Shown here in pieces: positions 1 to 20,691 of a stretch of 22,292 bases of DNA. Location of the stretch: IMG/VR virus record IMGVR_UViG_3300030118_004059, positions 1-22,292 of that record; one strand, written 5' to 3'. A model generated the notes under the pieces. The model saw only the letters and a program-made list of their open reading frames with translations. It did not search any database and was not told the DNA's origin. The position numbers and the translations under genes were made by a program. Numbering within the stretch: the first letter of the stretch is position 1; each line of letters begins with the position of its first letter. Source of the DNA: a virus.

Positions 1-52
1 TATCAGGAATGATATCTCTTAGCTGTTGATGAAAGTTTTCAGATTTGTCCAT
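1..52 (-). CDS. partial 5' end of an unidentified early gene
   Basis: Only the first 17 codons are inside the window; the rest lies off the left edge. The visible residues read MDKSENFHQQLRDIIP. The ATG at 52 overlaps the last codons of the dnaB-like gene by 14 bases and is preceded by a purine-rich GGGGGAAG about nine bases upstream, which supports it as a real start. As the third gene of the leftward replication operon (initiator, helicase, this) it could encode a primase, polymerase or helicase partner, but nothing in 17 residues shows that. Confidence 0.5.
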   Translation of the reverse strand, partial: MDKSENFHQQLRDIIPD

Positions 53-1346
53 ATTGTTTTCTTCCCCCGAAAGCCTGCTCCTCTGGGTCCACAAACCTTG
101 ATCTGTGTCCTTCAAACCCTAGCTCAAACTCTCCTGTTTCACCTAATCTATTCTTTCTAATTATAACCTCTGCTAGACCTGTATCCAAAGAGTCATAGTA
201 TTCCTGTCTATACAACATTATTACCATATCAGCATCTTGCTCTATAGATCCTGAGTCTCTCAAATCTGAGAGGACTGGTCTTTTATCCGTTCTCGCCTCC
301 ACACCCCGATTTAATTGAGATAACGAGATTAACGGACAAGAAATTTCTTTCGCCAGTCCTTTCAGAAGATTGGAGATGTAAGTCATTGATGCAGTTCTGC
401 TATCAGAATTACTTGGTGCTTTGTTTGTTGTCATCAAAAGCTGTAAGTAATCAACTACTATCAAGTCAACATCTGTGATTGATTGTATTGCTTTGGTTTT
501 GTTTATTAAAGTCTCAATGGTGATAGGTGATTTGTCATAGATGTATAAGCCAGAACCAGAAAGCTGTTGTTTTACTGTATGAAATGATGCCCATTCGCTT
601 TTAGACATATTGCCAGCAATGAGAGAATCCATTTTGATACCTGACTCAGAGCTTATTATTTTCTTAACAAGTTGTTCGTTTGTCATTTCAAGACTAAAAA
701 CTAAAACATTTTTACCTTTCATAACATTGTTTGTTGCTATATTAAGTGCCCATGTGGTTTTACCCATGCCTGGTCTACCAGCAACAACAATAAGATCACC
801 AGCCTTGAATCCTTTTATTTTTTCATCTATGTTTTTGAAACCAGTTTTTATTAAATTCTTGCTTACTGCATTTGCATCTTTTAACTCTTGCTCAACAGTG
901 TTTATTACATCAATAACATTTTTAGGTGCTCCAGAGTTTTTAGTTATCTTGTTGTTAATTAAAAGGTCATTAACTTTATCTATCATTTCCTCAATCGTTA
1001 TATCCTCTGCAACGATGGCTGGTATTTTTTTTGCAAGGTTCTTTAGTTTGTTTTTAGATGTTTTTAAATTCATCATCTTCATCCAAGAAGCAAATCCAGC
1101 AGACGAAATACAGTATCCTGCCGCTTGCCTGACTTCCTCAACCATTCTTTTATTTTTAAGATTATGCATAACCGTAACCATGTCCGATCTTTGATGTTCT
1201 AACATAACCTCATAGGCTTTACCGTAAGCTTTGTTTTCAAAATGTTCTGGCAACAAACCTTCTTCTTGTGAAAGTAAAAACTTTTTGTGATCTAAAATTA
1301 TTGATCCTATTAAGTTTGATTCTAAGTCTAATAATTCCTTATCCAT
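39..1346 (-). CDS. dnaB: DnaB-family replicative DNA helicase
   Basis: A 435-residue protein with the full DnaB layout. An N-terminal helical domain (about residues 1-110) is followed by a linker and a RecA-type ATPase domain. Visible motifs are Walker A GRPGMGKT at 190-197, the catalytic-Glu segment FSLEMT near 217-222, Walker B LIVVDYLQL at 295-303, the SQLNRGVE/RPVLSDLRDSG segment at 343-366 and the arginine-finger region IRKNRLGETG near 396-405. The family forms a hexamer that unwinds the fork 5' to 3' and is loaded at the origin by an initiator or loader. The ATG at 1346 has GAGGAG just upstream and overlaps the stop of the initiator-like gene by 8 bases, so the two are probably translationally coupled. 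The length is slightly short for bacterial DnaB (about 470) but normal for phage versions. The identification is secure. Confidence 0.95.
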   Translation of the reverse strand: MDKELLDLESNLIGSIILDHKKFLLSQEEGLLPEHFENKAYGKAYEVMLEHQRSDMVTVMHNLKNKRMVEEVRQAAGYCISSAGFASWMKMMNLKTSKNKLKNLAKKIPAIVAEDITIEEMIDKVNDLLINNKITKNSGAPKNVIDVINTVEQELKDANAVSKNLIKTGFKNIDEKIKGFKAGDLIVVAGRPGMGKTTWALNIATNNVMKGKNVLVFSLEMTNEQLVKKIISSESGIKMDSLIAGNMSKSEWASFHTVKQQLSGSGLYIYDKSPITIETLINKTKAIQSITDVDLIVVDYLQLLMTTNKAPSNSDSRTASMTYISNLLKGLAKEISCPLISLSQLNRGVEARTDKRPVLSDLRDSGSIEQDADMVIMLYRQEYYDSLDTGLAEVIIRKNRLGETGEFELGFEGHRSRFVDPEEQAFGGRKQYGQI

Positions 1347-1971
1347 ATCTCCTCTCTATAATTGCATCAAATTGATTCATACCTAACATTGTCATTAGTG
1401 TTGGCTTTTTGTCCCAGTAAGACCTTATCCATTTTTTATGACCATCACTGTTTGCAATGCTGAAGTATGCTTGCCAAAACTCTTCCTTGGTAAGATCTAT
1501 TCGTTTATTTGTTTTTGGCGAAGTTATTCCCTTTCTCCCCAACTCCCTGAGCTCCTTCCATCTTGGCACAGCCTTGAATGTATTAACTGAGTGCTGATAA
1601 AAAACCTTGTCGGTTTTTTCTTTAAAAATATTATTTATTTTTTCCAACTCTAGTATATATACCTTTTTAGTATTAACTTTAGTATTGTAGCCACCTGCCG
1701 ACCCCCTATAGCCGTCTGCCGACCCCACCTTTAAAGTGTAAAGATTGCTTGTATTGTTTCGTTTTTCCCAGTCAATATAGCCAGCATCTTTTAACTTTTT
1801 TAAATTATCTTTGACAGCAGTTAAAGATAAACAAGTAACCTTGGTTAGTGTCTCGTGTGATGGATATGCTTGACCATATTGGTCTGACCAATTAGCTAAA
1901 GTAAAAAGAATTAGTTTTTGTGTTGGTGTAACTTTAAGGTAAATAATTTTTGTAATGTTTTCTACTGACAT
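1339..1971 (-). CDS. winged-helix replication initiator-like protein (lambda O-type role)
   Basis: A 210-residue protein. Residues 13-80 form a winged helix-turn-helix: VTPTQKLILFTLANWSD, then YPSHETLTKVTCLSLTAVKDNLKKLKDAGYI and a basic wing. This is the type found at the N-terminus of phage replication proteins and lambda O. A short Gly/Ser linker (GSADGYRGSAGGY, 83-95) joins it to a basic, Trp-rich C-terminal part (125-210) that I do not recognise. It sits directly upstream of dnaB with an 8-base overlap, which fits an initiator that binds the origin and recruits the helicase. Start: ATG at 1971 with GAGGAAAC upstream. The linker-coding DNA carries an 11-bp direct repeat next to a very AT-rich stretch, reminiscent of lambda ori inside O. 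It could instead be a transcription regulator; the gene order favours initiator. Confidence 0.7.
   Translation of the reverse strand: MSVENITKIIYLKVTPTQKLILFTLANWSDQYGQAYPSHETLTKVTCLSLTAVKDNLKKLKDAGYIDWEKRNNTSNLYTLKVGSADGYRGSAGGYNTKVNTKKVYILELEKINNIFKEKTDKVFYQHSVNTFKAVPRWKELRELGRKGITSPKTNKRIDLTKEEFWQAYFSIANSDGHKKWIRSYWDKKPTLMTMLGMNQFDAIIERRYG
1621..1733 (-). other. candidate phage replication origin inside the initiator gene
   Basis: Seen: an 11-bp direct repeat CTGCCGACCCC (plus strand) at 1695-1705 and 1716-1726, inside a looser 21-bp tandem repeat. It is followed, in the direction of the gene, by a very AT-rich stretch; 1621-1680 has 9 G/C in 60 bases by hand count and contains the tandem AATACTAAA motif (minus strand). 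Known: lambda ori lies in the middle of gene O, with iterons followed by an AT-rich unwinding region, between the DNA-binding and helicase-recruiting halves of the protein. Inferred: the same layout here suggests an origin. Only two repeats are visible and they also encode a GSA-[DG]-GY peptide repeat, so this may be simple coding duplication. Confidence 0.35.
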
Positions 1972-2078: not shown

Positions 2079-2681
2079 ATGAATAATCTTATCGATGCTT
2101 TATTGAAAGCACAAAACGAAATTGACCATGCTGTAAAAGACGGGACCACACACTTTGGTGGTTATCCAACTCTTGAAGCTGTAATCAATACAGTCAAACC
2201 AGCACTTAATAGAAACGGTGTTTATTACCAACAAAAAACAGTAGCTAGTGAAAGAGGTGTTGTTGTAGAGACGGTCTTTTATGGACACGGTGCAGAACTA
2301 AATGCTGGTCAACTTATGGTTCCAGCAACAAAAAATAATGCTCAACAATTTGGTTCAGCACTTACATATGCAAGAAGATATGCTTTAGCTACTGCTTGTG
2401 GTATTGGTGCTAGAGATGATGACGGTCAAGAGTCAACTGCTGCATCTAACAATATAGTAGAAGATGATAAACCTGAAAACCATGTTGCTGATATGTTAAA
2501 AGATTTAGAAGATGAGCAACCAAAAAGAAAATCTGAGTCAGATAAAATATACCAAAGACACCTAGAAACATTTCAAATTACAGACGATAAAGAAGTTCAA
2601 GCTGAACTTACATCTGCATATGCAAAATGGGTTGAAGATAAAAAAGCAGCAAAAGCCAAAAAAGATGAGGATATTTTATGA
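2079..2681 (+). CDS. erf: ERF-family single-strand annealing recombinase
   Basis: A 200-residue protein with the core of the ERF superfamily: a DNA-binding segment up to residue 90 and the signature GSALTYARRYALATACGIGARDDD at about 92-115. ERF proteins such as P22 Erf bind single strands and anneal them during RecA-independent recombination and genome circularisation. The C-terminal third (120-200) is acidic then lysine-rich and probably disordered, with a final DEDIL tail. It is the first gene after the rightward promoter, with GGAGG five bases before ATG, and its stop overlaps the start of the exonuclease gene (ATGA). Annealing protein plus exonuclease forms a classic phage recombination pair. 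The family call is confident. Confidence 0.9.
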   Translation: MNNLIDALLKAQNEIDHAVKDGTTHFGGYPTLEAVINTVKPALNRNGVYYQQKTVASERGVVVETVFYGHGAELNAGQLMVPATKNNAQQFGSALTYARRYALATACGIGARDDDGQESTAASNNIVEDDKPENHVADMLKDLEDEQPKRKSESDKIYQRHLETFQITDDKEVQAELTSAYAKWVEDKKAAKAKKDEDIL

Positions 2682-3628
2682 AAATAAAACAAGGCACACC
2701 TGAATGGCATGAACAAAGAAAAGGTATTATTACTGGAACTAGGTTTCAAAAAGCTGTTAAAGAATGTATATGGACTAAAGGCGATCAGTGGGAAGCTCTA
2801 GGTAGAGAGATGTATCGTGGAGACCATAACCTTTCTCAAGATCCTTTTAATCAAAATGCTATCTATGCAATGAAGTGGGGCACAGAAAATGAGCCTGTGG
2901 CTATACAAGCACTTAAAGAGATGGGCTTTCAGATAGTTCCAACATCTTTTGTAAAACACAAGGAACATGATTGGCTTGGTATGTCGCCAGATGGTTTGCT
3001 TAAAAAAGGCAGAGATAATAAAAGATCAGCTATAGAAATTAAATGTCCGATTAGTAAGCCAGTAGAAAATGTTAAAGAATCAAAAAGAAACTATTGGCAT
3101 CAAATGCAGCTAGGCATGGAGTGCATGGATTTAGATGAAATGCTTTTTGTGCAGTGGACACCGAATGAAATTAAAACAGAGTGGGTTGAAAGAGATCCAA
3201 CTTGGGCTGAAAGATATATACCAAAAGCAAAAGAATTTGTTGTTTGGTATAAAGAACAACTAGAAAACCCAGAAGTTATTACAAGATGGGCTCAAGATAA
3301 AGAAGAGCCTGGAGTGAACTATAAACCTGTTGATGAAGATGATGATACATCTAAATTAGCAAGTATTATTGCCAAACTAAAGAAGCTAGACGAAGCTAAG
3401 AAACCGTTGGAAGCAGAGAAAAGAGAACTCGCTGACAAGCTGGTTGAAAAGCATAGTGGAGCCTTTAGCACGCCTACGGTTAAGTGTCATATGACACACG
3501 CCAAAGGGCGTATAAACTACACCAGAATGGTGAAGGACCTAGAGATACCTTACGATCAGGTAGAGGGCTACAGAGAAGAGGGTAAACCTAGGATCTATAC
3601 TAAATTAGTGGAGAATAAAAATGAGTAA
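2678..3628 (+). CDS. YqaJ / lambda-exonuclease-type recombination nuclease
   Basis: A 316-residue protein of the YqaJ-like viral recombinase family (PD-(D/E)XK fold). Visible motifs are the opening GTPEWHEQRKG at 6-16, GTENEP with Glu72, the catalytic pair SPDG (Asp105) and IEIK (Glu120, Lys122), and YWHQMQ at 139-144, the usual helix after the active site. Such enzymes digest one strand of duplex ends to leave single strands for the annealing protein. Residues 225-260 form a charged coiled-coil-like helix, and 261-316 are an extra C-terminal segment not needed for the nuclease fold. The start overlaps erf by ATGA, with GAGGA upstream, so the two are coupled. The stop overlaps the next small gene by 8 bases. 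Catalytic residues look complete. Confidence 0.9.
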   Translation: MKIKQGTPEWHEQRKGIITGTRFQKAVKECIWTKGDQWEALGREMYRGDHNLSQDPFNQNAIYAMKWGTENEPVAIQALKEMGFQIVPTSFVKHKEHDWLGMSPDGLLKKGRDNKRSAIEIKCPISKPVENVKESKRNYWHQMQLGMECMDLDEMLFVQWTPNEIKTEWVERDPTWAERYIPKAKEFVVWYKEQLENPEVITRWAQDKEEPGVNYKPVDEDDDTSKLASIIAKLKKLDEAKKPLEAEKRELADKLVEKHSGAFSTPTVKCHMTHAKGRINYTRMVKDLEIPYDQVEGYREEGKPRIYTKLVENKNE

Positions 3629-5248: not shown

Positions 5249-5415
5249 GCAATCATCACAACGAAGCTAACTTAGAAGCTTTATACGAAGCTGAGTATAA
5301 AAAGATATGCAAATACTTTCCAAGAACTAGCGAAAAAAGGAAACAAGAGTTTGCAGAGTTAGCGGTAGAAAGAATTATGAGACAAAGAAATGAAGACATG
5401 GAAGAAAGCAGTTAA
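5245..5415 (+). CDS. 56-aa charged helical protein upstream of integrase
   Basis: 56 residues, all helix-forming and strongly charged (ANLEALYEAEYKKICKYF, then KRKQEFAELAVERIMRQRNE). The ribosome site is excellent: AGGAGG at 5235-5240, four bases before the ATG. The start shares ATGA with the preceding micro-gene and the 3' end overlaps the integrase start by 26 bases, so integrase translation is probably coupled to it. Its place directly before int is where excisionases and integrase regulators are often found, but the sequence shows no recognisable DNA-binding motif. Confidence 0.7.
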   Translation: MSNHHNEANLEALYEAEYKKICKYFPRTSEKRKQEFAELAVERIMRQRNEDMEESS

Positions 5416-6190
5416 AGAGTATTACAGGTTTCATAAGATGGGTAGAAATGATTTTACCTACAGAAAATATTTTGATCCTATACTAGCAGACAAAGATATA
5501 AACACCATATCCAAACAAGATATAGCAAAAATTAAGTCTGGCATAAAAGGTAAGCCAAGCACAGTTAATAGATACTTAAGTTATTTTAGAGCAATACTTA
5601 TGTATGCTTACGAAGAATTAGGATGGTTGGACTCCAAGCCTATAATCAAAAGAGTAAAAGAACAGCCTATGAAGACTAAGTATTTTACTCTGGAACAAAT
5701 CAAGAGGCTCTACAAGGTTTTACCCGACCACTTGAAAGATCCTTTTGAGTTTTCCCTCCTAACTGGGGTGAGGATGTCCAACTGTCTTAATCTTAAATGG
5801 ACCCACATACACAAAAATCAGATCGCCATAGATGCAACAGAAACTAAAAATGGTAGACCTTTGTGTGTGCCTTTGAACAAAAGGTGCTTAGAGCTCCTAC
5901 AATCAATTAATAATACTAGCCCTTATGTTTTTACCTATGCGGGCAGAAAGATCAACAGAGCGTCTAACACGGGCTGGTATAACGCATTAGATAAAGCTGG
6001 ACTGAAAGGATACCGCTGGCATGATATAAGACATACCTGGGCTACCCATCATGTGATGAATGGAACCCCCTTACATACACTTCAACATTTGGGTGGGTGG
6101 TCCGACTTTAATATAGTTAACAGGTATGCTCACCTATCAGAAGATTATTTGAGTGAAGCTTGTGAGAATAGCAATACTTTGATATCTTAG
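5390..6190 (+). CDS. int: tyrosine-family site-specific integrase
   Basis: A 266-residue tyrosine recombinase. An N-terminal core-binding helical domain (about 1-95) precedes the catalytic domain. Active-site residues are all visible: Arg128 (TGVRMSNCLNLKW), Lys153 (ETKNGRP), His211 and Arg214 (RWHDIRHTWATHH), Trp237 in the GGW position often taken by His, and the nucleophile Tyr246 (NRYAHLSEDYL). It lacks a separate long arm-binding domain, so it is a small phage integrase. It probably integrates the phage chromosome at an attB, often a tRNA gene in related marine phages (established for other phages, not shown here). ATG 5390 is the first start after an in-frame stop at 5378-5380; the ribosome site is weak and the overlap with the 56-aa gene suggests coupling. 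It is the last gene of the rightward operon. Confidence 0.93.
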   Translation: MKTWKKAVKEYYRFHKMGRNDFTYRKYFDPILADKDINTISKQDIAKIKSGIKGKPSTVNRYLSYFRAILMYAYEELGWLDSKPIIKRVKEQPMKTKYFTLEQIKRLYKVLPDHLKDPFEFSLLTGVRMSNCLNLKWTHIHKNQIAIDATETKNGRPLCVPLNKRCLELLQSINNTSPYVFTYAGRKINRASNTGWYNALDKAGLKGYRWHDIRHTWATHHVMNGTPLHTLQHLGGWSDFNIVNRYAHLSEDYLSEACENSNTLIS

Positions 6191-14042: not shown

Positions 14043-14378
14043 TTAATCAAATAATTTGTTAAGTAATGCTGCTGCCGCAACTCCTAGCAACACTGGTCCT
14101 GCCAATGCACCAAGAGCTGCTCCACCTTGTGCAAGCAAAGTTCCTCCTGCTGCCTTTGATGCTGCTGCCTTTGCTATTGCTGCGTCTGCTGCTAAATATG
14201 CACCTACTCCAGCACCCATACCCATAAGGCTTTGCTCTGCTGCCTCTTTCTGCATACTAAGATTTCTTTCTGCAATGTCTTTTTGTGCTTCAAGCCTAGC
14301 TGCACCAAGCAACCCAGCTGTTGCTTGCTTTTTTGTTTCTTGCCCTGTTGCCAATAGTCCGCCTAATCCTCTAGCCAC
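14043..14378 (-). CDS. Ala/Gly-rich hydrophobic virion protein
   Basis: 111 residues. After MARGLGGLLATGQ comes a helical charged segment (14-50), then a strongly hydrophobic Ala/Gly stretch to the end (about 52-108) ending ALLNKLFD, able to form two or more membrane-compatible helices. Small proteins of this composition in the internal-protein cluster could help form the trans-envelope ejection channel (compare T7 gp14); that is inference. The start is GTG at 14378 with AGGAGG five bases upstream. The gene overlaps the preceding one by 8 bases. Confidence 0.75.
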   Translation of the reverse strand: MARGLGGLLATGQETKKQATAGLLGAARLEAQKDIAERNLSMQKEAAEQSLMGMGAGVGAYLAADAAIAKAAASKAAGGTLLAQGGAALGALAGPVLLGVAAAALLNKLFD

Positions 14379-16081: not shown

Positions 16082-16423
16082 TTATCCGCCTTCTTCTGGT
16101 GGGTTTAATACATCTGCACCATAAACTAAAAATGTAAATAATGCATCTAAACTGGACTTATCTTCGTAAACCTTTTCAACCCACTCAACAACCTTTGCCT
16201 CTGTTAAGGAATCTAGGTCTATAAAACTGCTGTCTGGCAAGCTTTTTGCTCTGTCATATGGGCAAAAATATACTGTTTCTAAAGAAGATCCTGTCTTACT
16301 TGAATCAGTCTGATCTACTGCTGATATCTTGCAAGTAGCCTGATTGACTATTTTTGTATCATCCATAAGAACTGCTTTTAAAGAAACAAATTCAAATGTG
16401 TAATTGAAATTATGTACTGCCAT
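16082..16423 (-). CDS. conserved-style tail-region protein, unknown function
   Basis: 113 residues: a beta-rich N-terminal part (FNYTFEFVSLKAVLM, then ATCKISAVDQTD) and a conserved-looking helix DLDSLTEAKVVEWVEKVYED at 69-88, ending in a Pro/Glu/Gly tail. The LTExxVxxWV pattern occurs in small proteins next to tail genes of marine phages, as far as I recall; no function is known to me. The ATG at 16423 shares TAATG with the tail-fibre stop, and AAGGACAGG lies upstream inside that gene. Confidence 0.7.
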   Translation of the reverse strand: MAVHNFNYTFEFVSLKAVLMDDTKIVNQATCKISAVDQTDSSKTGSSLETVYFCPYDRAKSLPDSSFIDLDSLTEAKVVEWVEKVYEDKSSLDALFTFLVYGADVLNPPEEGG

Positions 16424-19400
16424 TATGGTGCCTGTCCTTGACCTTGATTGCCGCCTTGATTACCACCCTGATTACCACCCTGATTACCACCCTGATTACC
16501 ACCCTGATTACCACCCTGATTAGATGGAGTTGTTTGTACTGAATAAGTATCAGATGTTTCTGCTATTGTAACTGTTGCTGATCTTGACTGCCCAGCTCCA
16601 GGTCCACTTGTAAGTCTAACTTGAAGAGTATCACCAGAGCTAACAGTAACTGAAGATGATGAAAAAGTTCCGCCATTTTTACTCATTTCAGGTGATCCAG
16701 TTCCAGTAAGTACAGCTGTAGCTGATGTAAATTGACCACCTAGAGTAACAGTATTTGATGTATGTAAAGTGTTTGTAGAAGCTCCACTTACATCTTGGAA
16801 TGTAAATTGATCTGGAGTATCAATGCCAAACTTAATAAATCTAGCTTCTATTGATCCTACTTGCACATTATTACTGTCGCCTTGTGCTTGTATAAATAAC
16901 TTTACAGTACCAGATCCTGTATATCTAAATGCTAAAGGAATATTTGCAGTGTCAGAACTTGAAACAAGTCTAGACTGAGATATATTACCATGCATATTTT
17001 CTAGTAAAGGCGTTATGTGAATCACGCCAGCACTACTCTCAATAAGACTTGGTGTGTCATCGTTATTTGTAGTAACAGTAGTGTTTATGTTGTTAGAAGA
17101 GCTTGGTCCATGAGTGCCATCACCAAATAAAAATCTTATAGTTTTGACCTCTCCTGTGCCTCCTACCGCTCTAACAAAACCAGTATAAAAGCCAGCACCA
17201 GAACCAATAGATGTTACAAATGCATATCTCATACTGTTGTTGTTAAAGTTTCCTATTACAGATCCAGAAGTTAAGCCACCTTCTGAGGGTAAAAGAAAGT
17301 TTTGAGTGTTAATTTGATCTACAGTAATCGAGTTTGCTGTAATTTTGCCACCGTTAATAGTCGTAGTATTATTGTTTACATCTGCTGCTGCACCTCCAGA
17401 TTCTACTGGAGTTATTGTTAATTTATTAGCAGCAATAGTATTTGTTGTAATGTTGCCACCATGAATTGTAGTGCCACCGTTTTGCGATAGATCTGATCCA
17501 ACTATAATGCCACCAGCAGTTATAACTCCATTAACATCTATACGATCTGCAACAAGTTCTCCAGCCGTAATAGAATCTGCATTTATATCAACTGCATTAA
17601 CTAAATCGGAGCTGAGTTCATCTATTTGAGCTGCTTGTATAGAAGCATTTTTAATAAGAGCTGTATCTATATAAACACCAGCTGCGTTACCATTAGCATC
17701 TGTACTTGTAAGCACAGTAAATGGCGACACTTGTCCGCTACCAGATGACGGCACTATAGCAAATCTATCTGCTTGGAATACTACATTGCTTGTTTGCTGA
17801 CCGCTTGGACTCGTACTGCTTTGTACTACAAAACCAGCTATATGACCGTTACTATTAACTTGTAAAACATAGGAAGCATCTGCTTGTCCTAGTGTATTAG
17901 TTGTAGTTTCAGCAAGCTGTAAGACCCCAGCATTGGTTCCTATAGTTGCTCCATTTGTAACTATTGAAGATGTGGCACTAGCATTAGCATTAGTGCCAGC
18001 TACCTCAACACGCAAAGTGGTTGATGTCAGTCTTGATACTACTTTAAATGTTCTGTTAAGTTGTTCAGCACTCAAGCCTCCAGTGCTTGAAAACCCTTTT
18101 AGTGATAAAAATACACCATTAGTAATATCTGCATTTGTTATATTGTGTGCAGTTGATGATCCAGAAGCCATCGTTTGCACATCTAAATTTTTAGTGCCGT
18201 TGTTAGTTGTAACTCTAGCATCAAAAGCAATACCAAGCTCAGATGATATAGCAGTTATAGAACTGGCATTTGCAGTTATAAGACCATCTCTTAGAGGTTG
18301 CCATGTACTGCCATTCCAACGGTATATTTTGTTTTGATCTCCTGTATGTATCCAAATATCTCCAATAGATGTAGCTGTTGGCGTAGTGCTTTGAGCAAAA
18401 GTTTGTAGTCCTGTTGGAGCCAGGGGCACCCAAGCACTACCGCTCCATCTATAAAGCTTATTGTTATCATCTGTTTCTATCCAAAGATCTCCTGTTTGAA
18501 GATCGTTAGTTGCATCGTTTGCTGGTGCATCTGTGCCAACAAAAGACTTATTTTTAGTATTAACTTTTGTAGTAAGGGCTGAAATAGCACTAGCATTTGT
18601 AGAAATACCAGAGGCGTTATTGGTAACAGAACTTTCTAAAGAATCAATTCTTGAGGCACTTGCCGAACCAGAACCAAATACCTCTGTCTGCAATGTTGAT
18701 ATTGCTGAAGCATTAGCCGAAACGCCAGAAGTTCCATTATTTACAGTATTCTGTAAAGCTGTAATAGCAGTTGAGTTAGATGTAACAAGAGAGTCTCTTA
18801 CCGATACCCAGTTATTACCATCATATCTATACAGCTGATTATCATCAGAGTCTATCCATAAGTCTCCTGTTGTTAAGCTACCTGTAGGTGCATTGGCTTG
18901 TATAAAATTAACTGGAATTGAAGTAACAGTGCTTGTCAGCGAGCTCAAAGCTGTAGCCGTAGCATCAACACCTGTAGATGTATCATTAACTGTGTTTTCT
19001 AAAGCAGTAATCTTTGAAGAATTAGACGATACTGTGCCATTTATATTGCTAACATTGGTTTGTAGAGTGCTTATAGCACTTGCATTACTTGTTATTCTTG
19101 TATCATCAACCGCTACAAAGTTTGTGCCATCATATCTATATTGTTTTTTATTATCATTTGTATCAAACCAAATATCTCCCTCTTGCAAGGTCGAACTATC
19201 TGGTCTTGCTGTAGGCTCATTATCTTGAGCAAAAACATGAAGACCGCTTGAATCTCCTACAGCAACCCAGTTTGAGTTTGTTGTAGCTGTAGCACGATAA
19301 AGCTTGTTGCTGTCGTTAGAATCAATCCAGAGATCTCCTATGGCTGTTGCGGTTGGGGGATTGTCTTGTATGAATGTTCTAGCTTTTGTATTTACTGTTC

Positions 19401-20691
19401 CAGTCAAGCTGGTTATTGAAGTATTTATATTAGTTACATCATTGTCGTTTGCTGTTATCTGAGTCTGTAAACCTGATATTGCAGTTGCTACTGTTGATGA
19501 TGAATTAAAACCAGTAAGGGTGTTTTGTAGCTCTGTTACATTAGTTGATAATGTACTGATAGTGTTGCCTTGGTTTGTTACTGTGCTAGATAAGGTGCTT
19601 ATAGCATTGGCATTTGCAGATAGCCCAGTGGTTGAATTTGTTATAGCTGCATTTAGTGATGTAATATTTATTGATGTTGAAATATTTGCCCTATCGCTGA
19701 CACCAGCTACCAACAATATGTCAGATGCATTTTGCGATATAGCATTACCATTTGATGTGATTTGAGTTTGTAAGGTTGTATCAGAGGATGATGTAGATCC
19801 TGCTGTAGTGGCTGCAAAAGAACTTCCTGTATAAACATATAACTCATTCACATTAGGACTTGAGTCTGTATCTATCCATATATCACCAGCTTGTAAGGAT
19901 GTGCCATCAGGTCTTTGTGTCGGCTCACTGTCTGACCTAATAACCCTTGGTGTGTTTGTGGTAAGACTTGTAACATTAGTTGAGGCTGTTGAGGCAAGTG
20001 TATTGATAGTTTCTAAGGTTGCTTGCAAGGTTCTTTGGGTGCCACTGATAGTAATATTCATATCAGTGTTGAGGGTGTTAAACCCAGGCAGTAATTTTAT
20101 CTCCTCTGACAGCTGTGTCATTACTGCACCCACATCTACGGCTGTGCTTGCAGATGTGCCAGTCTCACTGTTGAAAGGACCAGCCTCATCGTTCTGGTTT
20201 ACATGTCGTATCCAATAATATTTAGTTGCTGCATTACCCACTTGATGACTAAATACTGAAGCAGTGGTTTGTGCTAAGAATGTTCTTGTAGCAAAAGAGT
20301 TAGAGTTACTGACAAATATTTCTGTATGCGAATGACCAGCATAATCAGGAAAATCCCAAGACAATAATATATTTTGAAAAGCCCCTGAAGCAGTAAATCC
20401 TGTTGGTGCTGTAGCATTAGCAACCCCATCTTTTTTGTTATTATCATCTATAACAAAATCAGATCCACCACCAGTAACACTAAAGGTTTGTTTGGCTATG
20501 CCAGTGTCTATAAGGTCTTGGAAGGTTACTGCCCTATCAAGTATGTTACCCTTTTCACCTTTTAGTTGTTGCAGTGTATCTTGCACAGATTGTGCAAATC
20601 TTTTGCCTTCTATACTGAAATCTCTTGGTATAGGAAAACTACCACGAGCTGTTTGATTTTTTTTCTTTTTTTTAAGGTATTCGTTTGCCAC
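16423..20691 (-). CDS. tail fibre / tail-tip protein with J-like C-terminal region
   Basis: 1422 residues. In order: a lysine-rich start (MANEYLKKKKKNQTARG); a fibronectin-III-like domain at about 95-184 (TGFTASGAFQNILLSWDF to GPFNSETG); six copies of a GD[LI]W[IF]-x-[TS] ... LYRYDG..W module between about 269 and 800, separated by Ser/Thr/Asn heptad-like coils (VTSNSTAITALQNTV type); a segment typical of lambda J and DUF1983 proteins around 970-1100 (ADRFAIV at 974-980, then GVYIDTALIKNASI, and IDVNGVITAGGIIVGS); a beta-rich tip; and a Gly/Asn/Gln repeat tail. It likely binds the host surface. GTG start at 20691 with AGGAG upstream, sharing TAGTG with the preceding stop. Two A8 runs lie near the start. 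Confidence 0.85.
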   Translation of the reverse strand: MANEYLKKKKKNQTARGSFPIPRDFSIEGKRFAQSVQDTLQQLKGEKGNILDRAVTFQDLIDTGIAKQTFSVTGGGSDFVIDDNNKKDGVANATAPTGFTASGAFQNILLSWDFPDYAGHSHTEIFVSNSNSFATRTFLAQTTASVFSHQVGNAATKYYWIRHVNQNDEAGPFNSETGTSASTAVDVGAVMTQLSEEIKLLPGFNTLNTDMNITISGTQRTLQATLETINTLASTASTNVTSLTTNTPRVIRSDSEPTQRPDGTSLQAGDIWIDTDSSPNVNELYVYTGSSFAATTAGSTSSSDTTLQTQITSNGNAISQNASDILLVAGVSDRANISTSINITSLNAAITNSTTGLSANANAISTLSSTVTNQGNTISTLSTNVTELQNTLTGFNSSSTVATAISGLQTQITANDNDVTNINTSITSLTGTVNTKARTFIQDNPPTATAIGDLWIDSNDSNKLYRATATTNSNWVAVGDSSGLHVFAQDNEPTARPDSSTLQEGDIWFDTNDNKKQYRYDGTNFVAVDDTRITSNASAISTLQTNVSNINGTVSSNSSKITALENTVNDTSTGVDATATALSSLTSTVTSIPVNFIQANAPTGSLTTGDLWIDSDDNQLYRYDGNNWVSVRDSLVTSNSTAITALQNTVNNGTSGVSANASAISTLQTEVFGSGSASASRIDSLESSVTNNASGISTNASAISALTTKVNTKNKSFVGTDAPANDATNDLQTGDLWIETDDNNKLYRWSGSAWVPLAPTGLQTFAQSTTPTATSIGDIWIHTGDQNKIYRWNGSTWQPLRDGLITANASSITAISSELGIAFDARVTTNNGTKNLDVQTMASGSSTAHNITNADITNGVFLSLKGFSSTGGLSAEQLNRTFKVVSRLTSTTLRVEVAGTNANASATSSIVTNGATIGTNAGVLQLAETTTNTLGQADASYVLQVNSNGHIAGFVVQSSTSPSGQQTSNVVFQADRFAIVPSSGSGQVSPFTVLTSTDANGNAAGVYIDTALIKNASIQAAQIDELSSDLVNAVDINADSITAGELVADRIDVNGVITAGGIIVGSDLSQNGGTTIHGGNITTNTIAANKLTITPVESGGAAADVNNNTTTINGGKITANSITVDQINTQNFLLPSEGGLTSGSVIGNFNNNSMRYAFVTSIGSGAGFYTGFVRAVGGTGEVKTIRFLFGDGTHGPSSSNNINTTVTTNNDDTPSLIESSAGVIHITPLLENMHGNISQSRLVSSSDTANIPLAFRYTGSGTVKLFIQAQGDSNNVQVGSIEARFIKFGIDTPDQFTFQDVSGASTNTLHTSNTVTLGGQFTSATAVLTGTGSPEMSKNGGTFSSSSVTVSSGDTLQVRLTSGPGAGQSRSATVTIAETSDTYSVQTTPSNQGGNQGGNQGGNQGGNQGGNQGGNQGQGQAP
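16446..16521 (-). repeat. 12-bp in-frame tandem repeat at the tail-fibre C-terminus
   Basis: Five perfect copies of GATTACCACCCT (plus strand, 16458-16517), one degenerate copy before (16446-16457) and a partial one after. On the coding strand it encodes repeated GGNQ, just before the GQGQAP end. The unit is a multiple of three, so copy-number change keeps the frame and only lengthens or shortens the flexible tail. Confidence 0.9.
20656..20673 (-). repeat. double A8 homopolymer tract near the tail-fibre start
   Basis: Plus strand: eight T, one C, eight T (AAAAAAAA-G-AAAAAAAA on the coding strand), within codons 6-12 of the tail fibre (LKKKKKN). It includes the A AAA AAG heptamer used for frameshifting in dnaX. 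Slippage by one base leads to a stop within about ten codons, so it would switch off the fibre. Confidence 0.7.

Follow-up and report, generated by a model that had tools for sequence, protein, structure and literature searches.

Where does a phage that encodes both a replication initiator and a replicative helicase begin to copy its DNA? The question is raised by a linear virus record of 22,292 bases, probably a fragment, the whole of which is referred to here as the window. Its initiator gene (1339..1971, minus strand; gene position k is window position 1972 - k) encodes 210 amino acids. The next gene (39..1346, minus strand), whose start shares 8 nt with the end of the initiator gene, encodes a replicative helicase of the DnaB family, with matches to Pfam DnaB_C (E 3.2e-87), the DnaB N domain (E 6e-5) and PHROG 19 (E 2e-93). 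Divergent from the initiator gene are genes for an ERF-type annealing protein (2079-2681) and a YqaJ/RecE-type exonuclease (2678-3628), and an integrase gene (5390-6190) lies beyond the exonuclease gene on that side. An initial annotation of this DNA proposed that a replication origin is embedded in the initiator gene. Judged from sequence comparison, the stretch 1654-1728 is very probably an in-gene iteron replication origin of a phage with its own initiator and DnaB, and it is most likely an origin of the lambda O and P22 gp18 kind, closest to the 18-12 arrangement of phages P22 and L.

The initiator is predicted to consist of a winged helix (about residues 12-80), an origin-encoded linker of low model confidence (about 81-106) and a helical C-terminal domain (about 107-210). 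The winged helix previously assigned to the N terminus of the gene before dnaB corresponds to Pfam HTH_36 at residues 15-66 (E 3.9e-10). The N-terminal part also matches PHROG 1032, annotated as a replication initiation protein (E 1.3e-17), and PHROG 391 and 8540, annotated as replication initiation O-like (E 6e-12 and 1e-11). An O-like initiator with an N-terminal winged helix is the kind of protein found in modules of the lambda O or P22 gp18 type. In the AlphaFold2 model (mean pLDDT 66.5), residues 70-105, which cover the origin-coded residues, score below 50, and a C-terminal helical domain is predicted at 109-209. Fold matches of the model are winged helices (Z 8-11) and span residues 11-85 only; the solved structures among them are generic, with LexA first and a plasmid-type 'initiator' entry and DnaD also present. 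Foldseek with the whole model gave no match at E <= 0.001. The C-terminal domain gave no match indicating helicase binding in these whole-model searches, an absence that means little for this domain.

The repeats and the AT-rich DNA of the initial annotation were recovered from the sequence as described. An 11-bp direct repeat, CTGCCGACCCC, is exact at 1695-1705 and 1716-1726 on the plus strand, a tandem AATACTAAA lies on the minus strand at 1686-1678 and 1674-1666, and nine G/C were counted in the 60 bases of 1621-1680. The lambda-like order, repeats first and AT-rich DNA second, also holds, with the AT-rich run on the helicase-gene side. The repeat extends to 18 bp at 16 of 18 positions (89% identity; 1688-1705 and 1709-1726, spacing 21), and the full units, taken on the minus strand, are 21 bp long. 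The distal unit, iteron 1 (GTGGGGTCGGCAGACGGCTAT), occupies 1708..1728 with its dyad centre at 1717. The AT-rich-proximal unit, iteron 2 (AGGGGGTCGGCAGGTGGCTAC), occupies 1687..1707 with its dyad centre at 1696, and it is this unit that is flipped in place in the relative L035. The tandem 12-mers, AATACTAAA-GTT-AATACTAAA, are found at 1666..1686 on the minus strand. The AT-rich run (1621..1680, no strand assigned), presumed to be the strand-opening region, includes a conserved GGTATATATA on the minus strand.

How much these features mean in one sequence depends on the null against which they are set. Exact 11-mers with at least five G/C repeated within 60 nt occur elsewhere in the window only as a coding tandem at 16457-16512 and a pair at 14147/14162, and dinucleotide shuffles gave a mean of 0.08 such pairs per window. 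The coding tandem is a 12-nt repeat at the 3' end of a 1422-aa gene (16423-20691, minus strand), where it encodes a repetitive GGNQ tail. Random synonymous codons form a fairer null for the origin repeat, because its two copies encode similar peptides, GSADGY and GSAGGY; against this null, P is 0.007 for the exact 11-mer and 0.036 for the 21-nt match. Taken by itself, the AT-rich run does not stand out, because an intergenic cluster upstream of the gene is equally poor in G/C. This cluster, made up of 60-base windows starting at 1970-2011, is the only other one of its kind and holds the window minimum of six G/C. The intergenic region 1970-2070 as a whole is among the most AT-rich parts of the window, and the corresponding place is equally AT-rich in all five long relatives. 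From the evidence of the window alone, the case for an in-gene origin is only suggestive.

The relatives supply the stronger evidence. IMG/VR protein searches returned 9 relatives, then 56, then 78 loci in overlapping sets, down to 57% full-length identity; the analysis covered 76 genes, and 62 of these are distinct and extend to the block described below. In a collection of named phages, 67 records matched the initiator, none over 80% of the query. Bacterial genome contigs held 50 stretches that fit the pattern, yet no relative was found in them by tblastn. Synonymous change was measured from pairwise differences of cluster representatives against each pair's own gene-wide rate. Across 30 clusters, codons 83-106 (1654..1725, minus strand), the candidate-origin core, carry 349 synonymous differences where 2146.2 are expected, a ratio of 0.163, and none of 20,000 random 24-codon sets was as low. 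The lowest nine-codon window, residues 96-104, stands at 0.045 of expectation (0.007 in a first pass with 20 clusters), and values for the 161 nine-codon windows outside residues 80-112 run from 0.63 to 1.37. Among the 20 cluster representatives of the first pass, codons 96-98 and 100-102 show zero synonymous change, and the suppression reaches codon 106, at window position 1654.

The encoded peptide behaves differently from the DNA. Mean amino acid identity is 0.73 in the winged helix, 0.69 in the residues coded by the 12-mers and 0.75 in the C-terminal domain, and it is lowest, at 0.39, in the iteron-coded residues. It is the DNA of the block, not the peptide, that is under strong selection, because synonymous change is suppressed there while no other part of the protein is as poorly conserved as the peptide that the repeats encode. 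An alignment of homologues, which the initial annotation had named as the way to separate conserved DNA from conserved codons, thus clearly favours a DNA-level element, and the proposal of an origin inside the initiator gene gains its support from this constraint, from which we infer origin activity. Two fragmentary relatives at contig ends, L176 and L179, have stops or an altered second 12-mer (TATACTGAA in L179), reflecting either sequence error or decay.

The distinct genes share one layout. Two 21-nt units come first and are followed by AATACTAAA-N3-NATACTAAA, behind which there is usually a TATATA-like stretch. The AATACTAAA pair is codon-aligned directly behind the two units in all 62 genes. 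The core of the first 12-mer is identical in every one, and the second has A as its first base in 33 genes, T in 27 and C in 2. The 42 nt of the two units, by comparison, form 29 alleles, within which the two copies agree at 5 to 19 of 21 positions. Among the allele families are GGGTCGGCAGGTGGCTAC in the window, CCGCCGTCAGGTGGCTAC in L031, GGGCGGGAGGTGACTAC in L126 and GTACTCCAGAAGTAC in L167. Two iterons lie between the two domains of the initiator, within the coding sequence, in the window and in 24 of the 29 alleles. The remaining five (L035, L017, L045, L140 and L144) have no recognisable direct repeat, agreeing at no more than 10 of 21 positions. Homologues that lose the repeat had been put forward as evidence against an origin, and these five literally do so, but all of them retain the AATACTAAA pair, and L035 retains a flipped site. 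In genes of the L045, L140 and L127 type, the distal copy is altered and the proximal copy is better kept. The distal iteron of L045 (4259-4279) and that of L140 have an inverted repeat in place of the direct repeat, GTAGGT...ACCTAC in L045.

Putative dyad symmetry is centred at gene nt 255 and 276, which are exactly 21 apart, with 3.41 of 7 pairs at each over the 29 alleles against a background mean of 1.80 (sd 0.72) over all centres; higher scores are seen at two centres within the constant 12-mer block. The symmetry of the proximal copy is modest, at 2-4 of 7 pairs in 25 of 29 alleles, and reaches five or more only in L074, L149, L162 and L167; in L167 and L149 a palindrome with 5-bp arms has its centre at 276. 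The case of L035 fits this axis. Its proximal unit, GGGGTCAGCAGGTGGCTGT, lies on the opposite strand at gene nt 267-285 and agrees with the window's 19-nt iteron at 16 of 19 positions, while the next-best place in the gene scores 10 and 1000 codon-permuted genes reach at most 13. The flip changes the peptide to QPPADP where the window encodes GSAGGY, and its axis, at about nt 276, is the dyad centre derived from the other alleles. The related L017 scores 12 of 19 at the flipped place, within its null. On the tentative two-code reading given below, the flip would show that each iteron serves as a symmetric site for a dimer, constrained in its position and not in its direction.

The elements are also confined to one place. 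The AATACTAAA pair occurs exactly once in each of 20 related records. The iteron pattern YCRNSAGRYGGCTAY has 32 sites in 18 of the 20, all at the initiator-gene locus, and as expected it misses the records of L035 and L017. The 20 records were chosen for carrying the initiator gene, so only the absence of the motifs elsewhere is informative.

The window initiator is 97% identical to that of L002, whose DnaB is only 74% identical, and it is 91% identical to that of L028, whose DnaB is 99% identical. Along the gene (1339-1971), the winged helix resembles that of L002 and L027, and the C-terminal half resembles that of L028, as do the DnaB and ERF genes. The initiator gene therefore appears to be a recombinant, with the exchange just upstream of the origin. 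Aligned DNA of the window and L028 types (L004 is the same contig as L028) differs mostly before about nt 246, and residues 48-64 are unchanged between the two winged-helix versions, so both versions would serve the same iterons. One apparent covariation was dropped. Residue 47, just before the recognition helix, covaried perfectly with T or C at gene nt 271 among the 45 distinct genes first compared, but two changes on the tree are enough to explain this, with one independent pair on well-supported branches. The pairing was then broken by L125 (C47, CCG), L149 and L162 (G47, CCG) and L126 (N47, GCG).

Three other explanations for a conserved block in this position were weighed against an origin. 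The one with the most in its favour, though improbable, is a regulatory site: the initiator would control transcription of its own gene or dnaB, by a roadblock or at an internal operator, and replication would start elsewhere. The data reveal a selected DNA site and not the effect of binding, and the divergent intergenic region upstream holds another AT-rich stretch. All five long relatives likewise have 60 bp with at most nine G/C about 370-390 bp upstream of the site. An operator, however, needs no 12-mer pair and AT-rich run in fixed register, and the iteron motif is absent from the promoter region of the initiator gene in all 20 related records. Lambda, P22 and L, according to published accounts and annotations, have their origin at the very same spot of the gene. 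The AT-rich run contributes less to the preferred reading than the initial annotation had supposed. It does adjoin the iterons on the helicase-gene side, but only three of the five long relatives have such a stretch of at most nine G/C at the origin, and it is not the special part. A GC-skew minimum elsewhere had also been named as evidence against the origin. In the five records of 42-54 kb, cumulative skew tracks the coding strand and dips no more than locally near the point of divergence beside the initiator. With the initiator turned to the plus strand, the global minimum lies elsewhere in all five: in four it is within 0.3 kb of the record start, and in the fifth it is at 4.3 kb. Skew is uninformative on the origin and counts neither for nor against the proposal. 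Two strict patterns found no DnaA boxes in the window.

Constraint on the codons by an RNA structure, an overlapping gene or an internal promoter is highly unlikely. Synonymous constraint by itself is compatible with all of these, but across 20 representatives the consensus fold is weak (-4.2 kcal/mol, 7 pairs, several of them broken), the five other frames are closed in 19 and one frame is open in one, and no sigma-70-like site is present on the gene strand in the block. The flipped site of L035 suits duplex DNA and not RNA. That the repeat arose by chance from a repetitive peptide in an AT-rich genome is scarcely credible. Similar peptides do make similar codons likely, as the modest P value of the 21-nt match under random synonymous codons reflects, but the peptide varies among relatives while the register and synonymous suppression persist.

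An origin inside an initiator gene has well-described precedents. PMC8022706 describes four repeats of about 20 bp in P22 gene 18 and six imprecise 11-bp repeats, a likely origin, in gene 18 of phage L; each set is read by its own initiator, and the DnaB-type gene 12 adjoins. For lambda and the Stx phages, PMC7466680 places the iterons in the middle of O and gives the minimal site as an imperfect inverted repeat of 19 bp; it also reports earlier work in which two iterons and the AT-rich region were the minimal fragment for unwinding. In the description of PMC5043065, O binds as dimers to inverted repeats, and a region of 40 bp rich in A+T comes next. The two iterons of the window equal this reported lambda minimum and are fewer than the four to six of lambda, P22, L and the Stx phages. 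The scan used to find repeats was controlled on lambda O, where the best repeat (nt 349) is the first annotated iteron, and on P22 gene 18, where it falls at nt 373, inside the annotated rep_origin.

P22 is the closest match in layout, with an O-like initiator gene, origin repeats in mid-gene and a phage DnaB gene overlapping by a few nucleotides (gene 18 at 32488-33303, rep_origin 32840-32984, gene 12 from 33300). It also has an exact tandem A-rich 12-mer behind the repeats, ACAAAAGACAAT twice. It differs in having four repeats of another sequence, a 12-mer spacing of 14 rather than 12 and a longer initiator. Phage L shares repeats within the initiator gene that are taken as the likely origin and a DnaB-type neighbour, but the repeats described for it are six, imprecise and 11 bp long, and its origin was likewise deduced from sequence. 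Lambda and the Stx phages share the O initiator, the mid-gene iterons and the AT-rich side downstream; they differ in their four or six imperfect inverted repeats of about 19 bp and in the use of P to bring host DnaB. Vibrio phages 381E49-1 and V039C have 35-38% winged-helix identity, repeats directly after the winged helix (GGTATGGCAGGAAATG and GGTATAGCAGGAGATG, spacing 21 or 24) and a DnaB-type gene next, but they carry two or three repeats and a GAACCAGTCAAA-like second element, and the tblastn match is N-terminal only. Repeats follow the winged helix in the comparator initiators of Vibrio, Pseudomonas, Psychrobacter and Escherichia phages. Marinomonas phage P12026, a comparator chosen for its DnaB, is not a convincing case: one of its genes shows only a simple GGGAACA repeat, and nothing significant was found in the other.

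The helicase neighbour decides which subtype is the nearer one. A DnaB gene follows the initiator gene on the same strand and in the same order in all 46 distinct related contigs that continue past it (from 59 rows, after setting aside 4 for contigs already counted and 9 that stop at or within the initiator gene). A phage DnaB gene directly after the initiator is the mark of the P22 18-12 subtype. For the loader of lambda O-P, none of 10 related records matched the Phage_lambda_P family. DnaC-family matches in these records were only sub-threshold (6 of 10), and none fell outside DnaB-like frames, which are 434-448 aa long and have the size and place of DnaB. The initial annotation's lambdoid-like module therefore stands in part: the initiator carries its own candidate origin and a DnaB gene adjoins, but P22 and L 18-12 are closer than lambda O-P.

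A working model can be drawn from these parts. The winged helix of the initiator would bind the iterons, probably as one dimer per dyad; their 21-bp spacing is about two helical turns. Binding would bend or unwind the adjoining AATACTAAA 12-mers and the AT-rich run, and the C-terminal domain would recruit DnaB. This helicase is the phage's own, the product of the adjacent gene, and would be brought in with no loader of the P type, following the gp18/gp12 layout of P22. The peptide of the linker would be mostly a passenger, required only to stay open and flexible. A bolder reading, which is tentative and on balance somewhat doubtful, is that the block holds two separately evolving codes, the iterons being a fast-switching recognition cassette and the A-rich 12-mer pair a fixed strand-opening code. 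The linker would again be a passenger, and the 12-mer pair would be read by invariant machinery, either the initiator on single strands or the helicase. The tandem 12-mers of P22, Escherichia phage PhiR63_1 and Psychrobacter phage Y8A offer a hint that such a pair is a general second element of O-type origins. Outside the clade, among nine comparators, only P22, PsyY8A and PhiR63 (12 of 12) are convincing. Lambda scores 9 of 12, which we take, by our own estimate, to be what chance would give over so many positions. In O-like genes of Vibrio, Escherichia and Psychrobacter phages (L096, L097, L100 and L102; about codons 115-150), iterons are followed by GAACCAGTCAAA / GAACCTATCAAT elements, which are exact and at 12-nt spacing in PhiR63_1 and Y8A. 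These are possibly a common second element of O-type origins.

The layout itself is already known from P22, L and lambda, and what deserves further attention is the flip of an iteron, the series of alleles and the 12-mer pair that stays constant. Among the papers listed in literature searches, none dealt with an origin inside a gene in this phage group, and a marine/temperate query likewise returned none. The present comparison makes a clear quantitative sequence case for one in an uncultured phage group. The 29 alleles, which share one register and of which one is inverted in place, amount to a natural mutagenesis series for the rules of initiator-iteron recognition and for the strand-opening 12-mers. 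Synonymous suppression where the peptide varies could locate origins in many phages annotated only with an O-like gene.

The neighbouring recombination genes vary among the same relatives. The divergent ERF-type annealing gene of the window was matched in only 13 of the 59 rows and is missing or unrecognisable in most relatives, including L031-L075. The YqaJ exonuclease was matched in nearly all of these rows, and within this recombination module the annealing protein seems to be the part that is swapped.
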